A DNA stretch of 64,000 bases from Pseudomonas sp. Tri1 (lineage in GTDB: Bacteria > Pseudomonadota > Gammaproteobacteria > Pseudomonadales > Pseudomonadaceae), in assembly GCF_017968885.1 (NCBI RefSeq), contig NZ_CP072913.1, positions 3,270,001-3,334,000 of the forward strand, in the 5' to 3' direction. The translations under genes and the position numbers were made by a program. Shown here one piece after another: positions 40,838-50,819 of this stretch. Below the pieces are notes generated by a model. It was not told the DNA's origin. It made no database searches and worked only from the letters and a program-made list of their open reading frames with translations. The first letter of the stretch is position 1; each line of letters starts with the position of its first letter.

Positions 40838-42127
40838 TCAGTACTTCTCCATCATGTCGGCCGCCTGTTGGGTCGCCTGGCTGGTACGGGTGGCCAGCTT
40901 GCGGACCTCGTCGGCGACTACAGCGAAGCCCCTTCCGGCCTCACCGGCTCTGGCCGCCTCTATGGCCGCGTTCAGTGCCAGGAGATTGGTCTGTTTGGCG
41001 ATGCTTTGGATGGTGGCGACTATCTGCGTCAGCTGGGCGAGGTTTTCCTGCATCGCTTGATGCTGACGTTCCTGAGTCTGGCGCAATTGGCTTTCCTCGC
41101 GGAAGGAGTGCACGTCTGTGATCGCCCCCACTGTACGTAAGGGAGTGCCGTCGGTGCTTCGCTGGGTCTGACCTTTGCCTCTGAACCAACGATACTCGTC
41201 GTTGCGGTGCCTGAGGCGGTAGGTTACATCGAAGGGTGTTTGGCCGGAGCGATCGGCGACATGTTCGACAAAAGCCTGCACGGCACGCTGGCTGTCTTCG
41301 GGATGCAGGCGAGACAACCAGCTTTCGAATACATTGGGAAACTGTTCGATGGTTTCGTAGCCGAGCAGGCGACGCATCTGTGACGAGAACCAGATGACGT
41401 TGTGCGGGTTGGCTGGATCGCCTGCGATGATATTGATGTCCCAGAGTGCGTCCTGAATGCATTCGCGGGAAATATCGAAGCGGGCTGAAAGCATCGCGAA
41501 TTCTTCGTCTCGCAGGCGCTGCTTGTGGATGTCACGCAAAATACCGACGCTGACCTGTGGCGTGCCCCGTTTGTCACGGAGCGTTTCGCCAAAGATTTGC
41601 ACCCAGCGGTATTCTCCCGAGTGGCTCGCGAGGCGCACCTCCACCTGGTAGGGAGCATGCCCGTTGCGATCGGCAAGGTGATGAGCCAGGGCATCCAGGT
41701 TGGCCTGGCGGTCATCAGGGTGAAGGCAATCGTTCCAGGGGCCTAGATAGACGGGGAGGTCCGCTTGGGTGGGCAGGTCGCCGAACCATTGCAGTACTGC
41801 GTCGCGGGAGGGCTGCAGGCTGCCATTGAGCTGCAATTTCCAGAGCAAATCACCCGACCCGCATGCCACCAATTGCCAAAGTTGTTCTTGATCTTGCAGC
41901 TGCGTTTCGTATTCACCAAGCTGAAGCTTGAGGCGTTGCTGTTCAGCATTAAGGTCGACCACGCTGGCTCGGAGCGCCGTGCGATCGGCGAGCAGGCGTT
42001 CTATGCCATCCAGTACCCGCCGCAATAACGAGTCTTTCGCCGCTATGGATACCCCCTCGCCGTCGGGTTGTTCCAGCCTGTCGCCGAGCAGCTTCAGTTC
42101 CTTGCGGGTGCTATTTCTGAAAAACAT
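40838..42127 (-). CDS. Soluble PAS-PAS methyl-accepting chemotaxis protein
   Basis: A 429-residue cytoplasmic chemoreceptor without membrane segments. A coiled-coil start (about 1-65) is followed by two PAS domains (about 68-185, with [18 protein letters not shown], and about 190-310, with [18 protein letters not shown]) and a short MCP signalling tip ([40 protein letters not shown]) ending at MEKY. The signalling helix bundle stops just after the tip, as in Aer/BdlA-like short receptors. ATG 42127 precedes the family start [11 protein letters not shown]. It lies 115 bases after the cobalt-permease gene on the same strand and may be part of the nitrile operon. Confidence 0.85.
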
Positions 42128-42242
42128 CAAATACCTCTGGTTTTGCTCTCGAGGTTTCGGGGCGGTTCTTGTTCTTGATGCCCCGAGCATTACGGTCTTC
42201 GAATGCCCGGGGACAGTCTGACTTGGACTGGCGTACGCCGAC

Positions 42243-42920
42243 TCAGGCGGCCTGGTACAGCCGGCGCTCGACCAGCGTGCTACCACGCAATCGATGGGTA
42301 GCCTTGGCACCGGCCAGCACGGCCAGGTCCAACAGCGGTTCGAGGGTGACGACGGTCATGTAGGCACTACCGAAGGTCAGAATTGACATTGCGTTTTCTG
42401 CTGTGAAGCCTTGCCCGTAGAAGGCCCAGAAGGCAACCCAGGCGACAATGCCCGCCTGGAAGGCCGTCGACAGCCCCAGAGCTTGTCTATAGCTCAGCTC
42501 CACATACGGCGTGTTTGGCGCGATGATGCGTTTCGCCAGGGCAGCGACTGCGAACAGCGGTACCAGAAGGGTGGTGACGTTCATGCCGTATTGCGGCAGG
42601 TCGAATGGAGCGAAGAACAGACCCTGGATCAGCAGTCCCAGGGCGAGCCCCGCCGCTGCGGGTGCGGCGCCAAGCAGCAGAAACAGCGTTGACCCCAGGA
42701 TAAGATGCACCTCGGAAACACCGACTGGATAGTGCGGTAGTAGCTCGAAGAAGCTGAATACCAGGGCCGTGGCAGTGACAGTGCGAGCGAGAAGCGAGAA
42801 GACACCACGCTCACCGATGGCTTGCGCAGCGAGTTTGAGTGTATAGGCGCCGACACCTGCGGCAGTGACATAGCTCAGCCAGATTTTTCCAGCTTCCACC
42901 AGATTAGGTTCGATATGCAT
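42243..42920 (-). CDS. CbiM-like cobalt permease of the nitrile hydratase operon
   Basis: A 225-residue membrane protein with about six to seven helices and the CbiM-type N terminus [19 protein letters not shown], where the first Met and His are the Co/Ni ligands in this family. Further motifs are [20 protein letters not shown] and [20 protein letters not shown]. No CbiNQO partners are present, so it may act alone or with a genomic ECF module. Its place right after the nitrile hydratase genes, whose enzyme is the cobalt type, supports cobalt supply. Confidence 0.8.
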
Positions 42921-42978: not shown

Positions 42979-43419
42979 TCAGCTTGTGGCACGGCTGATC
43001 GCTACCGGCTCGTGCCGTGGCAGGTGTTCGTGCCCGTGTCCATGGGCCGGTGGGCAACTCGCGTTGAGCAGCGTTACCGGTTGTCCATGGGGGGTATTCA
43101 AGTAAGCTCGCTGCCATTCCTCGGTGCGCTGGGTGATGTCTTCCATACCTGCTAAACCGAGTGTGGTGACCATTCTTTCCATGGCCGCGATCCATTGCCG
43201 GTAGTAAGTGTCGTTGACGCTTTCTCCGGGTTGCGCCGGGCTCGCCTTGATCTCGTCGCTGAATACCTGCACCCAGTCCTTCCAGGGAAATAGACCGGTT
43301 TGGTGCAGGTGCAGCAGCAGGGAAAAAGCCTGGGCCTGCCAAGGTTTGTCGAACACCGGGCCTTCATCGTCGAGAGACAGACCGGCTACTGGGGGGATGA
43401 GAGGCATGCTCGTGCTCAT
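42979..43419 (-). CDS. Nitrile hydratase accessory protein
   Basis: A 146-residue protein related to the N-terminal half of the nitrile hydratase beta subunit (PLIPPVAGLSLDDEGPVFDK, QAFSLLLHLHQTGLFPWKDW, YYRQWIAAMERMV), the group that includes the cobalt-type activator/self-subunit-swapping chaperones. It ends in a histidine-rich tail (AHGHGHEHLPRHEP) suited to cobalt binding. ATG 43419 overlaps the beta-subunit stop as ATGA and has GGAGG upstream, so translation is coupled. Role inferred: cobalt insertion and cysteine oxidation in the alpha subunit. Confidence 0.85.
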   Translation of the reverse strand: MSTSMPLIPPVAGLSLDDEGPVFDKPWQAQAFSLLLHLHQTGLFPWKDWVQVFSDEIKASPAQPGESVNDTYYRQWIAAMERMVTTLGLAGMEDITQRTEEWQRAYLNTPHGQPVTLLNASCPPAHGHGHEHLPRHEPVAISRATS

Positions 43420-44069
43420 ACGGCCTCCAGATAGTTGTCCCACAGGTCAATGCAAACACTGTCCGGTCGCGCCACTCCCCACAATTCTGTGGCACTGAAG
43501 CGAACGGCATAGACCTGTTGGGGTTGTTCGCCCAGACCGTGGGCCATTGTGTCTGGGGTGGCAAACGCGCCGTGTGCAATCTCGATTGTCCCGACCTTGC
43601 CGCGCGCGTAGCGCGGCAGTCGGGTGTGGGTGGTTGGATTGAGGTTCTTCGTCCGCACCCGGTCACCGACCCGGAAGCGGCCGCAGATATGTTCCTTTGC
43701 CCTGGATGAGGCGCCTCCAAGGATCACAGCCTCGACGATGTCCGGTGTGAGCACCGTAGGGGGTTGTGCCGGTGAGGTCGGTTTGACCGTGCCTTGCAGT
43801 TCGGCAGCGCTGATCACGCCTTTTTCCAGCAGCAGGGTCTCGAAGGCGTGAAGCCAGTGTTCGTAGTAACTCGACTGCAAGTATTCAGCCGGTTCCATGC
43901 GTTCAATGGCGTGTCGGAATTCGTCGACATTGAAGTGTCCGCCGACGAAGAGCGAGGCAAACAGCGGGAAGACCCTGCGCTCCCAGTCGTGATGGAAGAT
44001 GGGTTCATTTTCTTCGGTGAGCACTGGGCCGAAACCGTGCATACCGCCTAAGTCGTGTACACCGTTCAT
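43416..44069 (-). CDS. nthB: Nitrile hydratase beta subunit
   Basis: A 217-residue beta subunit beginning MNGVHDLGGMHGFGPV, the invariant NHase beta start. An N-terminal helical part (FPLFASLFVGGHFNVDEFRH) is followed by the SH3-like C-terminal barrel (FRVGDRVRTKNLNPTTHTRL, LWGVARPDSVCIDLWDNYLE). With alpha it hydrates nitriles to amides. It starts 20 bases after the alpha subunit and overlaps the accessory gene. Gene order alpha-beta-accessory is as in Pseudomonas chlororaphis-type clusters. Confidence 0.95.
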   Translation of the reverse strand: MNGVHDLGGMHGFGPVLTEENEPIFHHDWERRVFPLFASLFVGGHFNVDEFRHAIERMEPAEYLQSSYYEHWLHAFETLLLEKGVISAAELQGTVKPTSPAQPPTVLTPDIVEAVILGGASSRAKEHICGRFRVGDRVRTKNLNPTTHTRLPRYARGKVGTIEIAHGAFATPDTMAHGLGEQPQQVYAVRFSATELWGVARPDSVCIDLWDNYLEAV

Positions 44070-44088: not shown

Positions 44089-44721
44089 TCAGGCTTCGTC
44101 GCCCGGCGTCTTGGGCAGGCCAGTGCCGATCATGGCGTCACGCGTCACGAGCTCGACCAGCCGTTCCTCACTCCAACCGTCAGTACCAGCCGGACGTTCC
44201 GGCAGAACCAGGTAGCGCAACTCAGCACTGCTGTCCCAGACGCGAACTTCCTTGTCATTGGGAATGCTCAAACCGAATTCGGCCAGCACGCTGCGCGGGT
44301 CGATGACTATCCGTGACCGATAGGGCGCGGATTTGTACCAGGCTGGGGGCAGGCCCAGGGTCGGCCAGGGGTAGCAGGAGCACAGCGTGCAGACCGTCAC
44401 GTTGTGCACGGTCGCGGTGTTCTCCACCACCACCATGTCTTCGCCCTGCACGCCGGAAAACCCCAGTTCGGCAATGGCCGCAGTGGCATCTTCCAGCAGC
44501 CGATGTTTGTAATCGGGATCGGACCAGGCCTTGGAGACCACCTGAGCGCCGTTGCGCGGGCCGACCTTGTGCTGGTAAGTGTCCACCAGAGCATCCATGG
44601 CGGTTGGGTCGACCAAGCCCTTTTCTATTAACAGGGATTCGAGCGCCTTGACACGCAAGGCGATGGCCTCGGGTGGCTCGGTGTGGTCGTGATGGTGATG
44701 ATGTTCGTGCGTATGGCTCAT
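44089..44721 (-). CDS. nthA: Nitrile hydratase alpha subunit, cobalt type
   Basis: A 210-residue alpha subunit. The metal-binding claw is C111-T112-L113-C114-S115-C116 ([11 protein letters not shown]); threonine at the second position marks the cobalt rather than the iron enzyme (VCSLCSC). The N terminus is very histidine-rich ([17 protein letters not shown]), possibly a metal store. GAGGAG lies before ATG 44721. It follows the amidase gene by 76 bases, and a CbiM-like transporter follows downstream, consistent with cobalt dependence. Converts the nitrile made by OxdA to the amide. Confidence 0.95.
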
Positions 44722-44797: not shown

Positions 44798-46312
44798 TTA
44801 CAATGTCCGCCAGTCGACAGAGGCCTCGAATGCTGCCGCGGCTTGATAGAGGGTGCCTTCCGCATAATGTCTTCCGACAAGCATCAGCCCCACGGGCAGT
44901 CCGTCCACCAGGCCACAAGGGATCGACATGGCTGGGTGCCCCGTAATGTCTTGAGCGGCCGTATTGCCAAGCATCTCCAACGCACGAGTGACGTTCTCGG
45001 TGATTGAAGAACCCGGTTCCGGCAGCGGCTGAGCGGTGATTGGCACAGTCGGCATGACTAGCAGGTCATAGGTGTTCAACGCCTTGTCATAGGCGTCTCG
45101 GGCAAAGCGCGCGATGTTCTGGGCCTTGGCGTAGTAACGGCCGTTGTAGCGCTCCAGACCGAACTGGCCCACGAACATGCAAAGCTTGAGTGACGGGGAC
45201 AATGCGTTGGCCTGATCGCGCCAACCGACCTGTTTGTCCAGCAGGCCCACGTCGTAAAGCCCCTTCCAGTTAAAGCCCGCTCCATTACCGTGCATCATTT
45301 GCATGGTCAGGCCTTCACAGCCGATAGGGCTCCATAACGATCCCGCCAGGTTGTGTTCGGGAACCGATACCTCCTCGACCAGCGCGCCCAAAACCTCGAG
45401 CTGGGCGATAGCGCTGCGCACCTTTTCTGCGATACGTGGATCTTGGTTAGCGAGCTGGAAGCCTTCCTGGAGAACCCCGATCCTGAGTCCGATCACGCCT
45501 CGTTCCAAATAATCGCAATAAGCATCGACCTTGGGGGCGCTCTGACGAGGGTCGAGCCCGTCCGCTCCGGCCATCACTTCCAGCATGAGAGCGTTATCGC
45601 GTACGTTGCTCGTCATGGGGCCGACATGGTCGAAAGTGGCTTCGATCGCCATGACGCCGGTATAGGGCACCAGACCGAAGGTGGGCTTCATTCCATAAAT
45701 GCCGCACCAGGCTGCTGGAATGCGGATGGAGCCGCCTTGGTCTCCACCGATAGCCAGGTCGACCTCGCCCGACGCCACAAGCGCCGCGCTGCCGGAAGAC
45801 GAACCGCCGGTTGTGAAACCATGGCGAAAAGGGTTGTGCACAGGCGCTGGGTCTGAGGTATGACTACCACCGGAGAGGCAGTAATGTTCACAAGTGGCTT
45901 TGCCGAGAATCGTTGCTCCAGCGTCGAGCAAACGCGTCACCACGGTGGCATCGAACGACGGTACGAAACCCTCCAGTGGTGCGGCACCGTTCATCATGGG
46001 GACACCGGCCAGAGAGATATTGTCTTTGAGCGCGACCGTCTTGCCAGCAAGCTTGCCCGAACTGGCGCCTGTCACCTCAGTTCTGTAGTACCAGGCGTTT
46101 AGTGGATTATCCGTGCTTGAAGGGCGATAACCAGAACTGCGCTCGTAGCGCACTGGAGGGATGAAGTCTGGCAACTCATCGACGAGATCATAGGCATCAA
46201 AACTGGGTTGCATAAGTGCCAGGTATTCGCTGGCTTGCTCGGGTGTCAGTTGTATGTGCAGGCGGCTGGCGAGATCCTGCACTTGTTCGAGAGTCGGGCG
46301 GATGATGGCCAT
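44798..46312 (-). CDS. Amidase of the aldoxime-nitrile pathway
   Basis: A 504-residue amidase-signature enzyme. The Ser-cisSer-Lys triad is visible as K96 (VALKDN), S171 ([11 protein letters not shown]) and S195 ([11 protein letters not shown]), the same numbering as in the Rhodococcus nitrile-pathway amidases as I recall them. It hydrolyses the amide from nitrile hydratase to acid and ammonia. ATG 46312 has AGGA upstream; a longer frame starting at 46369 or beyond lacks family similarity. It is first in the leftward amidase-nthA-nthB-accessory-CbiM unit, with paired activator motifs at 46453-46491 upstream. Confidence 0.93.
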
Positions 46313-46452
46313 GGGGTGTCCTGTTTCCTGTGCCAACCCGTAGGGTGGCAGTGTCTGTTCAAACGTCATCTCGGGATGCCCGGGCACGGTGTGCTCTATT
46401 GGCGAAGTCGCGGCCGGGGCTGGTATCAAGCTATCTCTGCAAATTGAGCGGT

Positions 46453-46491
46453 GCTTGGTTGAGGAGGACATTCGCTTGGTTGAGCGGGACA
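46453..46491. promoter_or_regulatory. Tandem activator sites of the amidase/nitrile hydratase operon
   Basis: Two near-identical 18-bp units lie 21 bases apart on the + strand: GCTTGGTTGAGGAGGACA (46453-46470) and GCTTGGTTGAGCGGGACA (46474-46491). The same motif recurs upstream of the truncated hemoglobin and of oxdA. On the minus strand a -10-like GATAGC (46430-46435) lies 17 bases past the proximal unit, so that unit would overlap the -35 region, as for AraC-type class II activation. The gap 46313-46616 holds no gene. Confidence 0.75.
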
Positions 46492-46511
46492 CGGGTGCCC
46501 GTGTTTTTTTT
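46489..46511 (+). terminator. Hairpin with T tract on the + strand
   Basis: ACACGG (46489-46494) pairs with CCGTGT (46499-46504) around a GTGC loop, followed by seven to eight T. It points rightward although both flanking genes run left, so it might limit antisense transcription. Seen from the minus strand it is an A-tract just upstream of the activator sites. Confidence 0.4.
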
Positions 46512-46616
46512 AGCCACGCCACCGTAACCGTCGGCTGCCGGAGCGAGCCTCGGCAGCATGGAGGGCACCCCATGGATGCGCCCCCATTGGTGTGGCTCAG
46601 GTTTTTGACGAGCGTG

Positions 46617-47141
46617 TCAGTTTTCGGATTCAGGCGTGGTCTGTTTCTTAGATGACTTCCCGGGTTTCGGCCAGAAAACCCCAACGCTCTTCATTCCCTT
46701 GGCTGGGTCCATTTCCGGGTGCGCGAGTACGACGTCGCGATAGGAGGGGCTCCCAATCACCGCCGGTTTGAACTTGATGAGGAAGTCATTGACCTCCTTG
46801 CGCAGATCCGGTGCCAGACCGTAATCGTCGTAGCACGCTTCGAGACAATCGAGCACGGCTTGCCAGTGCACCTCGGTCAGGCCCATCCCGCGGTGCGCGG
46901 TGACCATGTCTCTGCCCCTGTATTTGGCGCTTCCACCCCAGTGCTCGGAAAGGAAATCGACAAAATTGATGTGTTCCTTTTGGAACGTCGATTCCGACAT
47001 ATGGGCCCAGATATGTCCGATGGCGGGATGCCCCATTGTTTTTCTCAGAACGGCACCTGCGAACTGATAGATAGCGTCATAGCCACCCAGACGGGTATAG
47101 AGGGAGGGTTGTTTTTCCATGGAGGGTTGCAGGTCGGTCAT
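46617..47141 (-). CDS. Truncated hemoglobin (group I-like) with C-terminal extension
   Basis: A 174-residue globin. The trHb core has the glycine motif [18 protein letters not shown], a distal-side helix [14 protein letters not shown] and the probable proximal histidine H83 ([15 protein letters not shown]). About 45 extra residues follow the 2-over-2 globin core, ending in a basic tail ([16 protein letters not shown]). It lies between the amidase and the outer-membrane transporter, with its own copy of the tandem activator motif at 47261-47278. A role with the heme enzyme OxdA (oxygen or NO removal, redox support) is possible but unproven. Confidence 0.85.
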
Positions 47142-47260
47142 TGCTTGGTTTCTCCGTTTCGAGTGAGGGTCATCTCATTAGCCAACTGTCGCGTTGGCAC
47201 GGTTGGTACGGGATGCGAAGTCTTGCGACGGATCCAAGTTGAATTCGTCGTTGGGCACAC

Positions 47261-47298
47261 GCTTGGTTGATAAGGACAACGGTTGGTAGAGGCGGGCG
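47261..47298. promoter_or_regulatory. Activator sites upstream of the truncated hemoglobin gene
   Basis: GCTTGGTTGATAAGGACA at 47261-47278 fits the 18-bp motif seen at the amidase and oxdA promoters. A weaker unit, GGTTGGTAGAGGCGGGCG, begins at 47281, about one period further from the hemoglobin start. The sites lie 120-157 bases upstream of the hemoglobin ATG. No clear -10 box is found at the expected distance. Confidence 0.6.
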
Positions 47299-47301
47299 GG
47301 T

Positions 47302-48168
47302 CTAGAAAACCCTTACGTAGCGCAGGTTCATGCGAAAGTCCTCTTTGGAGCCGTTCTCCACCGAAAGGTCGCGTCCCAGTTGCACTTGGATTTGGTCCTT
47401 GGCGGTGAAAAACTTTCTGGCCGTGAAGCGGACGTTGGTGGTTTCCATCCTGTCGTCCTGGTTGACACCATCGATCTGGTTTTCCCCGCCCCAACTGTGG
47501 CCGAAGCCGATAGCCAGTGCAGTTGTCTCGTCGGGCATGTAGCGCCCCATCAACTGAGCGCCGTAGGAAACGTCCTGCTCTCGACGGGCAGAGCTGGCGC
47601 CGAAGTCGTCGTTGTCTGCGTACCAGATGGCATCACCTACGAGGTCGATGGCCCACTTGTCCGTGAAGTGCTTGACGTAAGCGGCCTGGAGATCAACCTT
47701 CCAACGGTTCTCGCCAAGGTTGAGCGCGTCGTCTTTGTCATAGTCGCCAGTAGGCACGTACAAGTAAGCGGTCGCACCGAGGGTGTCATTGGCGTCGTTG
47801 AGACGGTACTTGAGCGGCGCTGTAAGAATGAGGTCGCCGATGCCGCTGGCGTCGCCTAAACCAGAAGCATCACCACCGCCTGAGACATGACCGAAGGGCA
47901 ATAGGAATTGTGGCTCGATGGTCAGCCGCTCGCTCAACTGGTAGACGTGCAGCAGACGCAGAATGCCGACATCGGAAGTCAGGTTGAAATCGGAACTGGT
48001 CTTGTGCCCCTGGGAGTAGGCATTGTCCGTGGTGGCGTGCTGGTAGTAGACCACACCGATGGTCGCTCCAACGGGGAGCGGCTCGTAATCGCCAGGATCC
48101 ACCTCGAGCGCGTGGGAGGAAAGGCTGGGGAGGAGGGCTGCAAGCGACAGGTAGCGGAACTGTTTCAT
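47302..48168 (-). CDS. Outer-membrane transporter of the MetA/phenol-degradation family
   Basis: A 288-residue exported beta-barrel protein: signal peptide ending near SSHALEVDPGDY, repeated amphipathic strands, and a terminal phenylalanine (MNLRYVRVF). The segment DASGIGDLILTAPLKYRL and TAYLYVPTGDYDKDDALNLG are typical of the transporter family found in hydrocarbon and aromatic pathways. AAGGAT precedes the ATG. It is downstream of oxdA across a terminator, so its expression may depend on read-through. Probable role: uptake of hydrophobic aldoxime or nitrile. Confidence 0.82.
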   Translation of the reverse strand: MKQFRYLSLAALLPSLSSHALEVDPGDYEPLPVGATIGVVYYQHATTDNAYSQGHKTSSDFNLTSDVGILRLLHVYQLSERLTIEPQFLLPFGHVSGGGDASGLGDASGIGDLILTAPLKYRLNDANDTLGATAYLYVPTGDYDKDDALNLGENRWKVDLQAAYVKHFTDKWAIDLVGDAIWYADNDDFGASSARREQDVSYGAQLMGRYMPDETTALAIGFGHSWGGENQIDGVNQDDRMETTNVRFTARKFFTAKDQIQVQLGRDLSVENGSKEDFRMNLRYVRVF

Positions 48169-48191
48169 GATCGAAGATCCTTTTTTCGGGC

Positions 48192-48233
48192 AAAAAGAGC
48201 CCCGCTAACGCCAATCAGGCGTCGCGCAGGGCT
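48192..48233 (-). terminator. Intrinsic terminator after oxdA
   Basis: On the minus strand AGCCC..ACGCC pairs with GGCGT..GGGCT (48198-48233) around a short loop, followed by CTTTTTG (48192-48196 as A run on +). It lies 22 bases beyond the oxdA stop and just before the transporter gene, where it would set a lower transporter level or act as a processing site. Confidence 0.75.
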
Positions 48234-48255
48234 AAAAGTGGAGTCAGCGATGGAG

Positions 48256-49311
48256 TCAGGTGGGCGACACTTGCGCGTCGCGCATCATCCCTGTCTGCGG
48301 ATGGCAGTTGATGTACTCGAACAGTTGCTGGCTACCGTCCGCTACCGAGACCTCGTGATACAGCCGCAGCTTCGAAAGTCCCCCGATCACGCGAAAGAAC
48401 GTAGTGAAAATGCGCAAGTGAGTGGGATGGGATTCTGCCCAGCGTTCCAGTTTGTCGAGCGATCGCCAGTGACCGATGTCATAGGCGATGTCGAGCAGAT
48501 TGCCATCCAGGTCGACATTGCGTACGAAGCGATTGCTGTAGCAGCCCAACGCCTGACCCTCGTCACGCAGGAAGTTCATGCCGTCTTGTAGAGGGGGTAG
48601 CATTTCGGTGAAGTACAGCGCGCGCTCTTCCTCGCCGGCGTCGACCCAGTCTTGTCCAGAACGGATCAGCGTCAGGTTGTCGTGACCGCGTATCACGACC
48701 TTGCCGCCCTTGGCCGGGTCCCCGGAAATCACTTGTAGTTCGCCGGTCGGTTGCATCCAATCGGTCTGTGAGATGGCAAAGCGGTCGCGTGCCGAGCCCC
48801 AGTAGCCGTGCTCTTCGACCTCGCCACTAATGCCGTCCATGACCGCACCGACACCTGGCAAATCTTCCTTGAATGCATACAGCGTCTCGAACTGATCGGC
48901 GCGCGGTGCGATGACCTCGCGGAAATACCCCAGCCCCTCGTTCAGGCGTGCCTCGTCAGCCCACCAATCGGCTACAGGCGCTGAAAGTAACCATCGGTGA
49001 TAGGCGGCGGGATCACGCCAGTAGCCCACGGCGATGAAGTTTCCATAACCCTGATTGTCGAGGTGGTAGGTCAGGTCGTGATTGCCGGGTCCATCGGCGA
49101 GGGCAAAGCTGGCGTCAATGTAGCGCATGGCCTGCAGGGCGGCGGCGCGTTGTTCGTCGCGAAATTGCACTCCGAGGTAGGCCATCACAACTTGCTTCAC
49201 GTTTTCGTCAGCTCGCCCAACAAACATCGGGAAGGGCGGCTTGTAATCGTCGTGAACACGACGGGACAAAGTCCGGGGACATTTGAGATGTTTATCGATT
49301 GCAGATTCCAT
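48256..49311 (-). CDS. oxdA: Aliphatic/aryl aldoxime dehydratase
   Basis: A 351-residue heme enzyme that dehydrates aldoximes to nitriles. Key residues match the P. chlororaphis enzyme with an offset of one: proximal heme ligand H298 (SHPTHLRIF), catalytic distal H319 (LRLYHEVSV), S218 (LIRSGQD) and R177 (SARDRFAI). The start MESAIDKHLKCPRTLSRR and length (352 in the known enzyme) agree. AAGGAG precedes ATG 49311 and overlaps the stop of an upstream broken small gene. It supplies nitrile to the cobalt nitrile hydratase. Expected regulation by the AraC activator encoded at 49884. Confidence 0.95.
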   Translation of the reverse strand: MESAIDKHLKCPRTLSRRVHDDYKPPFPMFVGRADENVKQVVMAYLGVQFRDEQRAAALQAMRYIDASFALADGPGNHDLTYHLDNQGYGNFIAVGYWRDPAAYHRWLLSAPVADWWADEARLNEGLGYFREVIAPRADQFETLYAFKEDLPGVGAVMDGISGEVEEHGYWGSARDRFAISQTDWMQPTGELQVISGDPAKGGKVVIRGHDNLTLIRSGQDWVDAGEEERALYFTEMLPPLQDGMNFLRDEGQALGCYSNRFVRNVDLDGNLLDIAYDIGHWRSLDKLERWAESHPTHLRIFTTFFRVIGGLSKLRLYHEVSVADGSQQLFEYINCHPQTGMMRDAQVSPT

Positions 49312-49321
49312 GGGGGCTCCT

Positions 49322-49521
49322 TTATTTCCGTCTCAAACGGACGGTTTTCTGTTCTACATCCCAGTGGATGTTGGTGTTTTGCGGTGGGTACCACTCCATC
49401 GGCGTTGCAGCACCAAGGTCCCGAGCTGTAGTAGGTAAGTGGCAAACTCTTCGGGTGCCATGTCCCATCTCTGTAGAAACCAGGATGAATCGGACAGTCG
49501 CTGTTGTTCTCGTGGATGCAT
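49322..49521 (-). pseudogene. Small 66-codon gene before oxdA, frameshifted
   Basis: ATG 49521 has GAGGTG at ideal spacing and opens MHPREQQRLSDSSWFLQRWD MAPEEFATYLLQLG (in two parts here), after which the frame runs into an unlikely tail and stops at 49354. In the neighbouring frame the sequence AATPMEWYPPQNTNIHWDVE runs to a TAA at 49322 that overlaps the oxdA ribosome binding site. Adding one base in the CCC at 49420-49422 joins both into a 66-residue protein. It is the first coding unit after the oxdA promoter. Function unknown; tryptophan-rich and soluble. Confidence 0.6.
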
Positions 49522-49568
49522 GAGACACCTCATCATTCGTGCTTGTAGGGACACGGCGTGGAGTGAAA

Positions 49569-49630
49569 ATTATCCAGGGGAGATGAAACGTGCTTGGCTC
49601 GAATGGACAACCGTTTGGTTAAAAAGGACA
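49569..49630. promoter_or_regulatory. oxdA-operon promoter with tandem activator sites
   Basis: GCTTGGCTCGAATGGACA (49592-49609) and GTTTGGTTAAAAAGGACA (49613-49630) repeat with a 21-bp period. On the minus strand a -10 box GATAAT (49569-49574) lies 17 bases beyond the proximal unit, so transcription would start near 49562 and the small gene before oxdA would be translated first. Sites are in the 362-base gap between that gene and the divergent AraC gene. Confidence 0.75.
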
Positions 49631-49821
49631 GGTAAAAAAGGCTGGCATATCAGCGCGCAGCAATGGTGCGGGGCTTGTGAAACAAGGGGGCGAGGCGCCC
49701 CGAGAAGTGGCATGGGGAGTGTTGGAAGGATCTACCCATTTAACGCCAGCCGAGTTCGCAGGCGGCTATCTTCCAAGGTGTCTGACAGCGGGAATGAGGC
49801 TATGGGGATGGCCTGCTAATT

Positions 49822-49855
49822 GCTTGGCTCGCAAAAAACGTTACCAAGCTTTTTT
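49822..49855. promoter_or_regulatory. Half-site and hairpin just upstream of the AraC gene
   Basis: GCTTGGCTCG (49822-49831) is identical to the first ten bases of one activator unit. It faces CCAAGC (49844-49849), which is followed by TTTTTT (49850-49855). This is both a possible autoregulatory half-site and a weak rightward attenuator before ATG 49884. Confidence 0.4.
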
Positions 49856-49883: not shown

Positions 49884-50819
49884 ATGAGCCAGACATGTCA
49901 GTATTCAACTCTTGCCGTTACGGCACCCCTGCGGTTCGATTACTGGAAGGAGGTGGTTTGTCACCACTGCCTGGATGCAGACAGCAAACTGTTGGCGCAG
50001 AGCGATTTTGACGGGGCGCTGGAGGTGCATAGCATGGGCGTATTGGACATCTGCACGTTGTCCGCACCCTTGCACTATTGGGAGCGGTCCGCCCAGCACC
50101 TACGCAGTGATCCTAATGACGATTTGTGGTTGGGCTTTACCAGGAGCGGTTATGGCGAACTGGAGCAGGCTGACCGACGGACGAAGCTGACGGCGGACGA
50201 TCTGTTTCTTTATGACGCATCCCAGCCGTTTAGATTCAGCTTCGGTGGTACGGACAATCACCTGGTCCGCATTCCGCGACAACTGCTCAGCCAGCGGTTG
50301 CCCGGCATAGCAGATTGCACCGCTGTGGTTCTGGATGATCGTCGTCCAGGGGTGATTCCGTTACGCGAGATGTTACGCCAAGCCGCAGGTATGCCTTCAG
50401 GCTTCCATAACACGGGAATATCCAGTCGTTACTCCAGCACGTTGCTCGACCTTCTGGTGGTCAGTCTGGAACTCCAGGATTTAAAGCAGACTCATGACGA
50501 GTTGGACCTGTATGGCCGGATCATGAATTACATCCACCAGTATTTGACCGAGGCGGACCTGTCGCTTGAGCGCATTGCTCAAGCTCACCATGTCTCCACG
50601 CGCACTGTGACGCGCGCTTTCGCCCGTTATCAGAAATCGCCGGTCGCGGAAATCTGGAAGGCGCGATTGCTCGCGAGCCGCGACGCGATTGAGCGCGGTC
50701 AAGTTCGCAGTATTTCTCAGGCGGCGCTGGATTTCGGCTTCTCCGACTTCTCTCATTTCAGCCACGCTTTTCGCAAGGCATTTGGCATTGCTCCCCACAC
50801 TCTCCTGCGGCGAGAGTGA
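49884..50819 (+). CDS. AraC-family activator of the aldoxime-nitrile genes
   Basis: A 311-residue regulator of the AraC-binding-domain-like type (FDYWKEVVCHHCLDADSKLL at residues 17-36, a pattern shared with NhpR/OxdR/NitR-like activators) with a C-terminal double helix-turn-helix (DLSLERIAQAHHVSTRTVTR and SISQAALDFGFSDFSHFSHA). ATG 49884 has GAGGTG upstream; a longer frame to 49677 lacks similarity. It is divergent from oxdA. The tandem 18-bp motifs at three promoters in this block are its likely binding sites. Inducer presumed to be an aldoxime, nitrile or amide. Confidence 0.88.
   Translation: MSQTCQYSTLAVTAPLRFDYWKEVVCHHCLDADSKLLAQSDFDGALEVHSMGVLDICTLSAPLHYWERSAQHLRSDPNDDLWLGFTRSGYGELEQADRRTKLTADDLFLYDASQPFRFSFGGTDNHLVRIPRQLLSQRLPGIADCTAVVLDDRRPGVIPLREMLRQAAGMPSGFHNTGISSRYSSTLLDLLVVSLELQDLKQTHDELDLYGRIMNYIHQYLTEADLSLERIAQAHHVSTRTVTRAFARYQKSPVAEIWKARLLASRDAIERGQVRSISQAALDFGFSDFSHFSHAFRKAFGIAPHTLLRRE

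Follow-up and report, generated by a model that had tools for sequence, protein, structure and literature searches.

What controls the aldoxime-nitrile gene cluster of Pseudomonas sp. Tri1, and do the repeats that precede several of its genes mark a single regulon? The cluster lies within a stretch of 64,000 nucleotides (contig NZ_CP072913.1, positions 3,270,001 to 3,334,000; this whole 64-kb stretch is called the window), in which genes for an aldoxime dehydratase (oxdA), a truncated hemoglobin-like protein (globin), an amidase and a nitrile hydratase are read divergently from a gene encoding an AraC-type protein. A preliminary description of this DNA reported an 18-bp motif at three promoters, named the AraC protein as its likely binder and concluded that a regulon had thereby been defined from sequence alone. 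We consider it very probable that the tandem 21-bp repeats are operators of the divergent AraC/XylS-family protein NhpR, that its targets are sigma70 promoters, and that nhpR itself is read from a sigma54-type promoter. The repeat pairs and their link to the regulator are upheld by our analysis; the claim to a first definition is not, as the window protein appears to be the known NhpR. Sakashita et al. reportedly described NhpR of P. chlororaphis B23 in 2008 as a XylS/AraC-type positive regulator of oxdA, amiA and nhpABC, encoded by a 936-bp gene upstream of oxdA. The window gene has this length and place in an arrangement that is conserved across loci, and we take the two to correspond. Among the matches listed (120 of 199), the shortened database names of its relatives include no entry called NhpR, and no description of an NhpR operator was found in the open-licence literature by title or abstract opening.

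Read along the target genes (minus strand), each unit has the sequence TGTCY-N7-CCAARC; the pattern is the 18-mer of the preliminary description. Its five copies, beginning at 46453, 46474, 47261, 49592 and 49613, are all exact as given on the plus strand, and no further exact copy is present in the window on either strand. At the amidase and oxdA promoters the units form pairs with the 21-bp period that had been claimed, and the hexamers GATAGC (46430-46435) and GATAAT (49569-49574) each lie 17 nucleotides past the proximal unit, again as described. The promoter elements are as follows.

49613..49630, minus strand: putative distal NhpR operator unit of the oxdA promoter; exact pattern match, pair kept in orthologs.
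49592..49609, minus strand: putative proximal NhpR operator unit of the oxdA promoter; exact match, its last six bases at the -35 position.
49569..49574, minus strand: -10-like hexamer GATAAT of oxdA, 17 nucleotides past the proximal unit.
46474..46491, minus strand: putative distal NhpR operator unit of the amidase promoter; exact match, pair conserved.
46453..46470, minus strand: putative proximal NhpR operator unit of the amidase promoter; exact match, pair conserved.
46430..46435, minus strand: -10-like hexamer GATAGC of the amidase gene, 17 nucleotides past the proximal unit.
47261..47278, minus strand: intact proximal operator unit of the globin promoter; exact match.
47282..47299, minus strand: degraded distal operator unit of the globin promoter; pair score 4.5.
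47238..47243, minus strand: weak -10-like hexamer TTCAAC of the globin gene, at the same offset as at the other two promoters.

The globin promoter had been described as one good plus one weak unit, and its distal unit is indeed badly degraded. Scored by a matrix, the oxdA and amidase pairs reach 52.5 and 53.2, respectively, and a clearer pair precedes the globin gene in three other loci (L087, 34.8; L116, 40.4; L118, 33.0). It is plausible that the globin promoter is a third target by descent, yet weak in this genome. An inverted GCTTGG...CCAAGC arrangement before nhpR was also considered and dropped, because an alignment indicates that it is not kept in close relatives.

The specificity of the signal resides in the tandem pair and not in the single unit. 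When R is relaxed to N, the unit matches exactly at six places in the 6.7-Mb genome; five are the cluster copies, and the sixth fails at R. When two mismatches are allowed, the single 18-mer matches 521 times on both strands, as compared to 451 for the pattern read backwards, and the single-unit scan was abandoned for the pair because chance matches were too many. The tandem pair, with up to three mismatches, occurs just twice in the whole genome, once before the amidase gene and once before oxdA.

The protein proposed to bind these pairs is encoded divergently, on the opposite strand.

49884..50819, plus strand: nhpR, AraC/XylS-family activator, 311 amino acids, 936 bp; PF14525 plus PF12833, with orthologs.

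Its product contains an AraC-like sensor domain (PF14525, 64.8 bits over residues 21-191) and a C-terminal double helix-turn-helix (HTH) DNA-binding domain (PF12833, 55.8 bits over residues 231-310, with PF00165 matching too). A search with this protein (E <= 1e-45) of 398 genomes of the same genus gave 36 with a match; one (G051, 37% identical, two internal stop codons) was set aside, leaving 35 orthologs at 63-100% identity, the window's included. Surroundings of 12.6-19.9 kb were inspected for the 34 others and for G051, and all 34 adjoin oxd, amidase and nitrile hydratase genes. The pair scan of the 398 genomes, which was made without reference to the protein and allowed up to three mismatches, yielded 76 matches by our own count, as compared to 4 for the backward control. 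A pair is present in 36 genomes; 34 of these belong to the 35 ortholog carriers (at least 63% identity), and the other 2, G137 and G336, to the remaining 363. This co-conservation of pair and AraC gene argues for NhpR as the binder, as the preliminary description had proposed for the gene at 49884. The G137 pair (3 mismatches, score 6.8) is a probable chance match, related genes being absent from the surrounding stretch; an extra pair in G348 (C2:2260678, 3 mismatches) is probably of the same kind, its neighbouring genes looking unrelated by eye, though its score of 17.0 exceeds all 60 shuffled loci.

Beyond Pseudomonas, a scan at one genome per species gave 49 loci, from which three at 25-26% identity were removed. 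The remaining 46, at 53-96% identity, span nine genera by their record names: Pseudomonas, Brenneria, Halotalea, Pectobacterium, Xanthomonas, Vreelandella, Acinetobacter, Pantoea and Pseudorhodoferax. The matrix was trained on 52 distinct Pseudomonas pairs, so that the ten loci from other genera lie outside its training, these same ten having been covered by an earlier mismatch scan that showed pairs. Over both strands of the whole locus, the top matrix match in all ten is a pair before a cluster gene, with scores of 15.2-53.1, whereas 60 shuffled loci reach 1.2 at most; a second pair scores above 10 in six of them. Loss of the motif alongside a retained AraC protein, which the preliminary description had named as a refuting observation, was not found: with the window included, all 47 loci with the protein (53-100% identity; 21 single-linkage clusters at 85% identity) keep at least one pair, each scoring above 10. 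The oxd-side pair exceeds this value in 43 of the 44 loci with oxd, and where oxd is absent (L109, L115, L121) the pair is found in front of the cluster gene that diverges from nhpR. A pair precedes the amidase gene in 39 loci, counting L109 and L121, in which this gene is divergent to nhpR. Five loci with a short amidase gap of 51-122 bp (L105, L106, L111, L113, L117) have no second pair; gap length does not account for this, as L085, L086, L119 and L120 have one in gaps of similar size. Within NhpR, the mean column identity of 15 aligned proteins is 0.87 in the DNA-binding domain versus 0.78 in the rest of the protein. Loci of more distant AraC proteins (L072, L124-L126) have pair scores of at most 2.8; L072 (1.5) and L126 (2.8) contain weak pair-like matches near the AraC gene, slightly above the best shuffle.

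How would NhpR act from these sites? Over 86 operator sites, the 17-base spacer past the proximal unit shows at most weak conservation (0.37 bits or less through +16), and positions +17 to +25 are conserved with the consensus GCCTAAYTT. At least four matches to TATAAT occur at offset 17 in 35 of the 86 sites, whereas every other offset from 8 to 31 yields at most 7. Because there is a single -10-like offset of 17 nucleotides, the last six bases of the proximal unit would fall at the -35 position. This sharp offset lends support to the earlier suggestion that the unit overlaps -35, and the arrangement fits class II-type activation; two direct repeats with a 21-bp period and a fixed distance to -10 are features of a XylS-like tandem class II promoter. 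The operator, its spacing and its link to NhpR are thus seen by comparing loci, and from them we infer binding and activation. Two NhpR subunits would bind the pair head to tail, the proximal unit (TGTCY-N7-CCAAGC) overlaying -35 so that sigma70 RNA polymerase is recruited to the -10 element 17 nucleotides downstream. The oxdA unit and the amidase-nitrile hydratase unit would be induced together, and the globin gene weakly.

Upstream of nhpR there is a further layer that the preliminary description did not mention. A search for sigma54-type promoters, which had reportedly been proposed for the B23 cluster, returned an element in front of the regulator gene.

49809..49824, plus strand: sigma54-type -24/-12 element TGGCCTGCTAATTGCT upstream of nhpR; strict TGG-N8-TTGC in 47/47 loci.
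49665..49669, plus strand: GGTGC, tentatively a half-site for an NtrC-type enhancer protein; GGTGC in 38/47 loci.

In every one of the 47 loci, TGG-N8-TTGC, which contains the GG-N10-GC core of sigma54 promoters, starts 56-110 bp before the matched NhpR start, as compared to 54 of 5800 shuffled stretches. Beside the catabolic operators the strict pattern is found in none of 86 stretches reaching from the operator to 110 nucleotides downstream, longer leaders lying outside the scan, and the best sigma54 scores there equal those of shuffles (7.33 versus 7.41). Comparison of the loci thus also reveals the sigma54-type element, and nhpR seems to be read from a promoter type other than that of its targets. 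The presence of this element before nhpR and its absence beside the operators suggest a cascade in which sigma54, perhaps with NtrC, leads to NhpR and NhpR to sigma70 promoters. GGTGC is half of the NtrC consensus; it occurs in 25 of 29 representative loci, as compared to 9 for GCACC and 4 for each of two control 5-mers. The best NtrC-like site scores 8.59 of 12 versus 7.31 in shuffles, the window's best 17-mer (49696-49712, 8 of 12) differing from the GGTGC site. A double NtrC site at fixed spacing is not claimed, as many spacings beat shuffles and none stood out. These data favour an NtrC-type enhancer protein upstream of nhpR but are not proof of one. In the scheme that we infer, nhpR would be transcribed from the conserved sigma54-type promoter, perhaps with an NtrC-like enhancer protein, and the pathway would be made only when an upstream signal, likely nitrogen shortage, coincides with the inducer.

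Pairs are also found away from NhpR. In two genomes (G279 and G282) the NhpR cluster has the hydratase motif of the iron type and lacks a MetA-like gene. A second locus elsewhere in each is without NhpR, and its globin, nitrile hydratase of the cobalt type, accessory protein and CbiM are 80-92% identical to those of the window. Remnants of the oxd promoter region, MetA and the amidase end are visible by eye in L073. At the second locus, both genomes have pairs before the globin gene and the relic oxd region, and G279 alone has one before the hydratase gene. An unlinked MetA-like gene of these two genomes (L128 3738-4715), which shares 43% identity with that of the window and lies some 3 kb past CbiM of the second locus, has a pair of its own (score 30.4) with the hexamer CCCTAT at the standard offset. 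Such pairs at distant loci without their own NhpR are what a regulon controlled in trans would show. Because the oxd-relic pair does not differ from that of the window, part of this pattern may reflect recent transfer and not selection.

Several observations weigh against the reading given above, and other explanations of the repeats can be set beside it. The loci are mutually related and the species set overlaps the 398 genomes, so that the counts are not independent events. Another protein might bind the repeats, their co-occurrence with NhpR being shared cluster inheritance, since NhpR and operator nearly always sit in one cluster; a case in point is G336 (L127), where an oxd-amidase-nitrile hydratase cluster keeps a recognisable oxdA pair and has no close NhpR. 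The AraC proteins of this genome that match NhpR at E <= 1e-12 reach at most 29% identity to it, and a different AraC-family protein, 26% identical to NhpR, lies at the far end of the cluster. The distal unit of the G336 pair is partly decayed, however, and replacement of the regulator is possible there. The loci without oxd, in which the pair stays with the gene divergent to NhpR, argue against a different binder, as do the low scores near more distant AraC genes and the occurrence of unlinked pairs in genomes that have NhpR elsewhere; we regard this explanation as quite improbable. Exceptions of the opposite kind also exist: a 63%-identical ortholog (G257/L071) has just a weak oxdA pair with 5 mismatches (the same contig scores 24.4 as L113), the oxdA pair of the Pantoea locus L119 scores 5.3 and is the sole oxd-side exception, and an amidase pair is missing from L105 (P. 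chlororaphis) and L106 (P. morbosilactucae), although the oxdA pair is there. That the promoters resemble one another through recent duplication or chance, with no regulatory meaning, draws on the abundance of single units at two mismatches; it is extremely unlikely given the excess of pairs over the control pattern, their persistence in loci with 53-57% identical NhpR, and the conservation of the boxes but at most weakly of the spacer that follows the unit.

The oxdA and amidase promoters might instead be sigma54 promoters, with the repeats as accessory sites. Sakashita et al. reportedly also proposed in 2008 putative sigma54-type sites at the mapped starts of nhpR, oxdA, nhpA and nhpS. A conserved sigma54-type element does lie in the same intergenic region, and 8 of 27 oxd-nhpR intergenic regions, that of P. 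chlororaphis (L105) among them, contain weak matches with three mismatches on the oxd strand, in scattered positions. In addition, the strict TGG-N8-TTGC pattern was drawn up with the elements already known, and the NtrC palindromes are kept in part only. The conserved element is directed to nhpR and not to oxdA, however, and the window contains no sigma54-like match on the oxd strand or upstream of the amidase, globin, MetA and hydratase genes; the scans beside the operators described above speak in the same direction. AraC-type activators lack a sigma54-remodelling domain, and NhpR shows just PF14525 and the HTH domains. We therefore judge sigma54 control of these promoters to be unlikely, if somewhat less so than a different binder. 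If the reported B23 assignment holds, the present comparison agrees with it for nhpR and disagrees for oxdA.

With NhpR retained as the binder of sigma70-type operators, a broader scheme can be drawn, to which we give roughly even chances. From Pseudomonas to Brenneria, Pantoea, Xanthomonas, Acinetobacter and Pseudorhodoferax, a two-tier switch would operate in which NtrC-sigma54 licenses NhpR under nitrogen starvation and NhpR, induced by amide or nitrile, opens the sigma70 promoters, the same operator serving iron- and cobalt-type hydratases and control being kept over relocated genes. If this is true, the reported sigma54 assignment of the catabolic promoters needs revision. Industry uses both nitrile hydratase and aldoxime dehydratase, and in plants aldoximes and nitriles serve as defence compounds or as precursors of them. 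With the operator defined, an inducible promoter would be available for construction, regulon members could be found in other genomes, outside the cluster too, and the question of which signal prompts use of these compounds would split in two, one part for the sigma54 step and one for the NhpR step. The sigma54-type element, the two hydratase types served and the genes that seemingly keep the operator outside the cluster add to this interest.

The remaining genes of the cluster are all read on the minus strand.

48256..49311, minus strand: oxdA, aliphatic aldoxime dehydratase; NF050090 equivalog, 649 bits versus a cut-off of 600.
47302..48168, minus strand: MetA-pathway-like protein; PF13557.
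46617..47141, minus strand: truncated-hemoglobin-like protein; PF01152.
44798..46312, minus strand: amidase; PF01425.
44089..44721, minus strand: nitrile hydratase alpha, with VCTLCSC; TIGR01323.
43416..44069, minus strand: nitrile hydratase beta; TIGR03888.
42979..43419, minus strand: nitrile hydratase accessory protein; TIGR03889.
42243..42920, minus strand: CbiM-like cobalt uptake protein; PF01891.

The MetA-pathway-like protein is probably located in the outer membrane, to judge from its family PF13557, and VCTLCSC of the alpha subunit is the cobalt-type motif. Hydratase type varies by locus: among 50 loci, 16 have VCTLCSC, 33 have VCSLCSC (iron-type) and 1 has neither, a split that constitutes an enzyme swap inside a conserved regulon. 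Between the oxdA promoter and oxdA lies a small open reading frame of about 55-60 codons (49354-49536, minus strand), and a related frame with a core like RDLAPEE is present in 18 of 25 loci tested. Because variation is greatest at the third codon position in 9 of 10 compared pairs, it probably encodes a real small protein. It has no NCBIfam match, and a database search gave 12 relatives, of which those with a name are called transcriptional regulator or hypothetical protein. The nitrile hydratase end is adjoined by a gene for a methyl-accepting chemotaxis protein that contains PAS (40838-42310, minus strand); its relatives occur in 24 of 50 fetched loci, the window included, and the cluster may thus include a chemoreceptor of its own. 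In the P. brassicae record (L065/L099), each of the matches to oxd, globin and nitrile hydratase beta falls into two pieces, reflecting either decay or assembly errors.

How does the NhpR system compare with regulators that are already characterized? The closest curated equivalog by score is FeaR (NCBIfam NF007243), which was rejected as a close model because its 120.9 bits are far below the cut-off of 199; it is a different regulator. In gene context, NhpR resembles NitR, which the part of PMC8955678 that deals with it describes as an AraC-family regulator beside nitrilase and oxd genes in Bacillus and Bradyrhizobium; both are AraC-family genes in aldoxime-nitrile clusters, but those of NitR are nitrilase clusters. 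The B23 hydratase is iron-type according to the same portion of that source, whereas the window has the cobalt-type motif, CbiM, and a globin gene with an extra promoter. In operator layout, NhpR can be likened to MekR/PmekA, where CACC-N5-CTTCAA-N6 occurs twice as a 21-bp direct repeat (in the relevant section of PMC4514859); in our own comparison with that section its boxes show the spacing of GTCC and CAA in the NhpR unit, while regulator, inducer and pathway differ. XylS/Pm of the TOL plasmid has two direct repeats of TGCA-N6-GGNTA-N6 with a 21-bp period, as given in passages of PMC5481539 and PMC4514859; a title cited in PMC5481539 has the XylS site overlapping the polymerase site, and the pertinent passage there has xylS read in part from the sigma54 promoter Ps1. 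Its box sequences differ from those of NhpR, the candidate upstream signal for nhpR is NtrC-like, and neither a second constitutive promoter nor XylR is in evidence for nhpR. As far as these passages go, what XylS/Pm and NhpR have in common is an activator of the AraC/XylS family, direct repeats with a 21-bp period and a sigma54-type promoter before the regulator gene.

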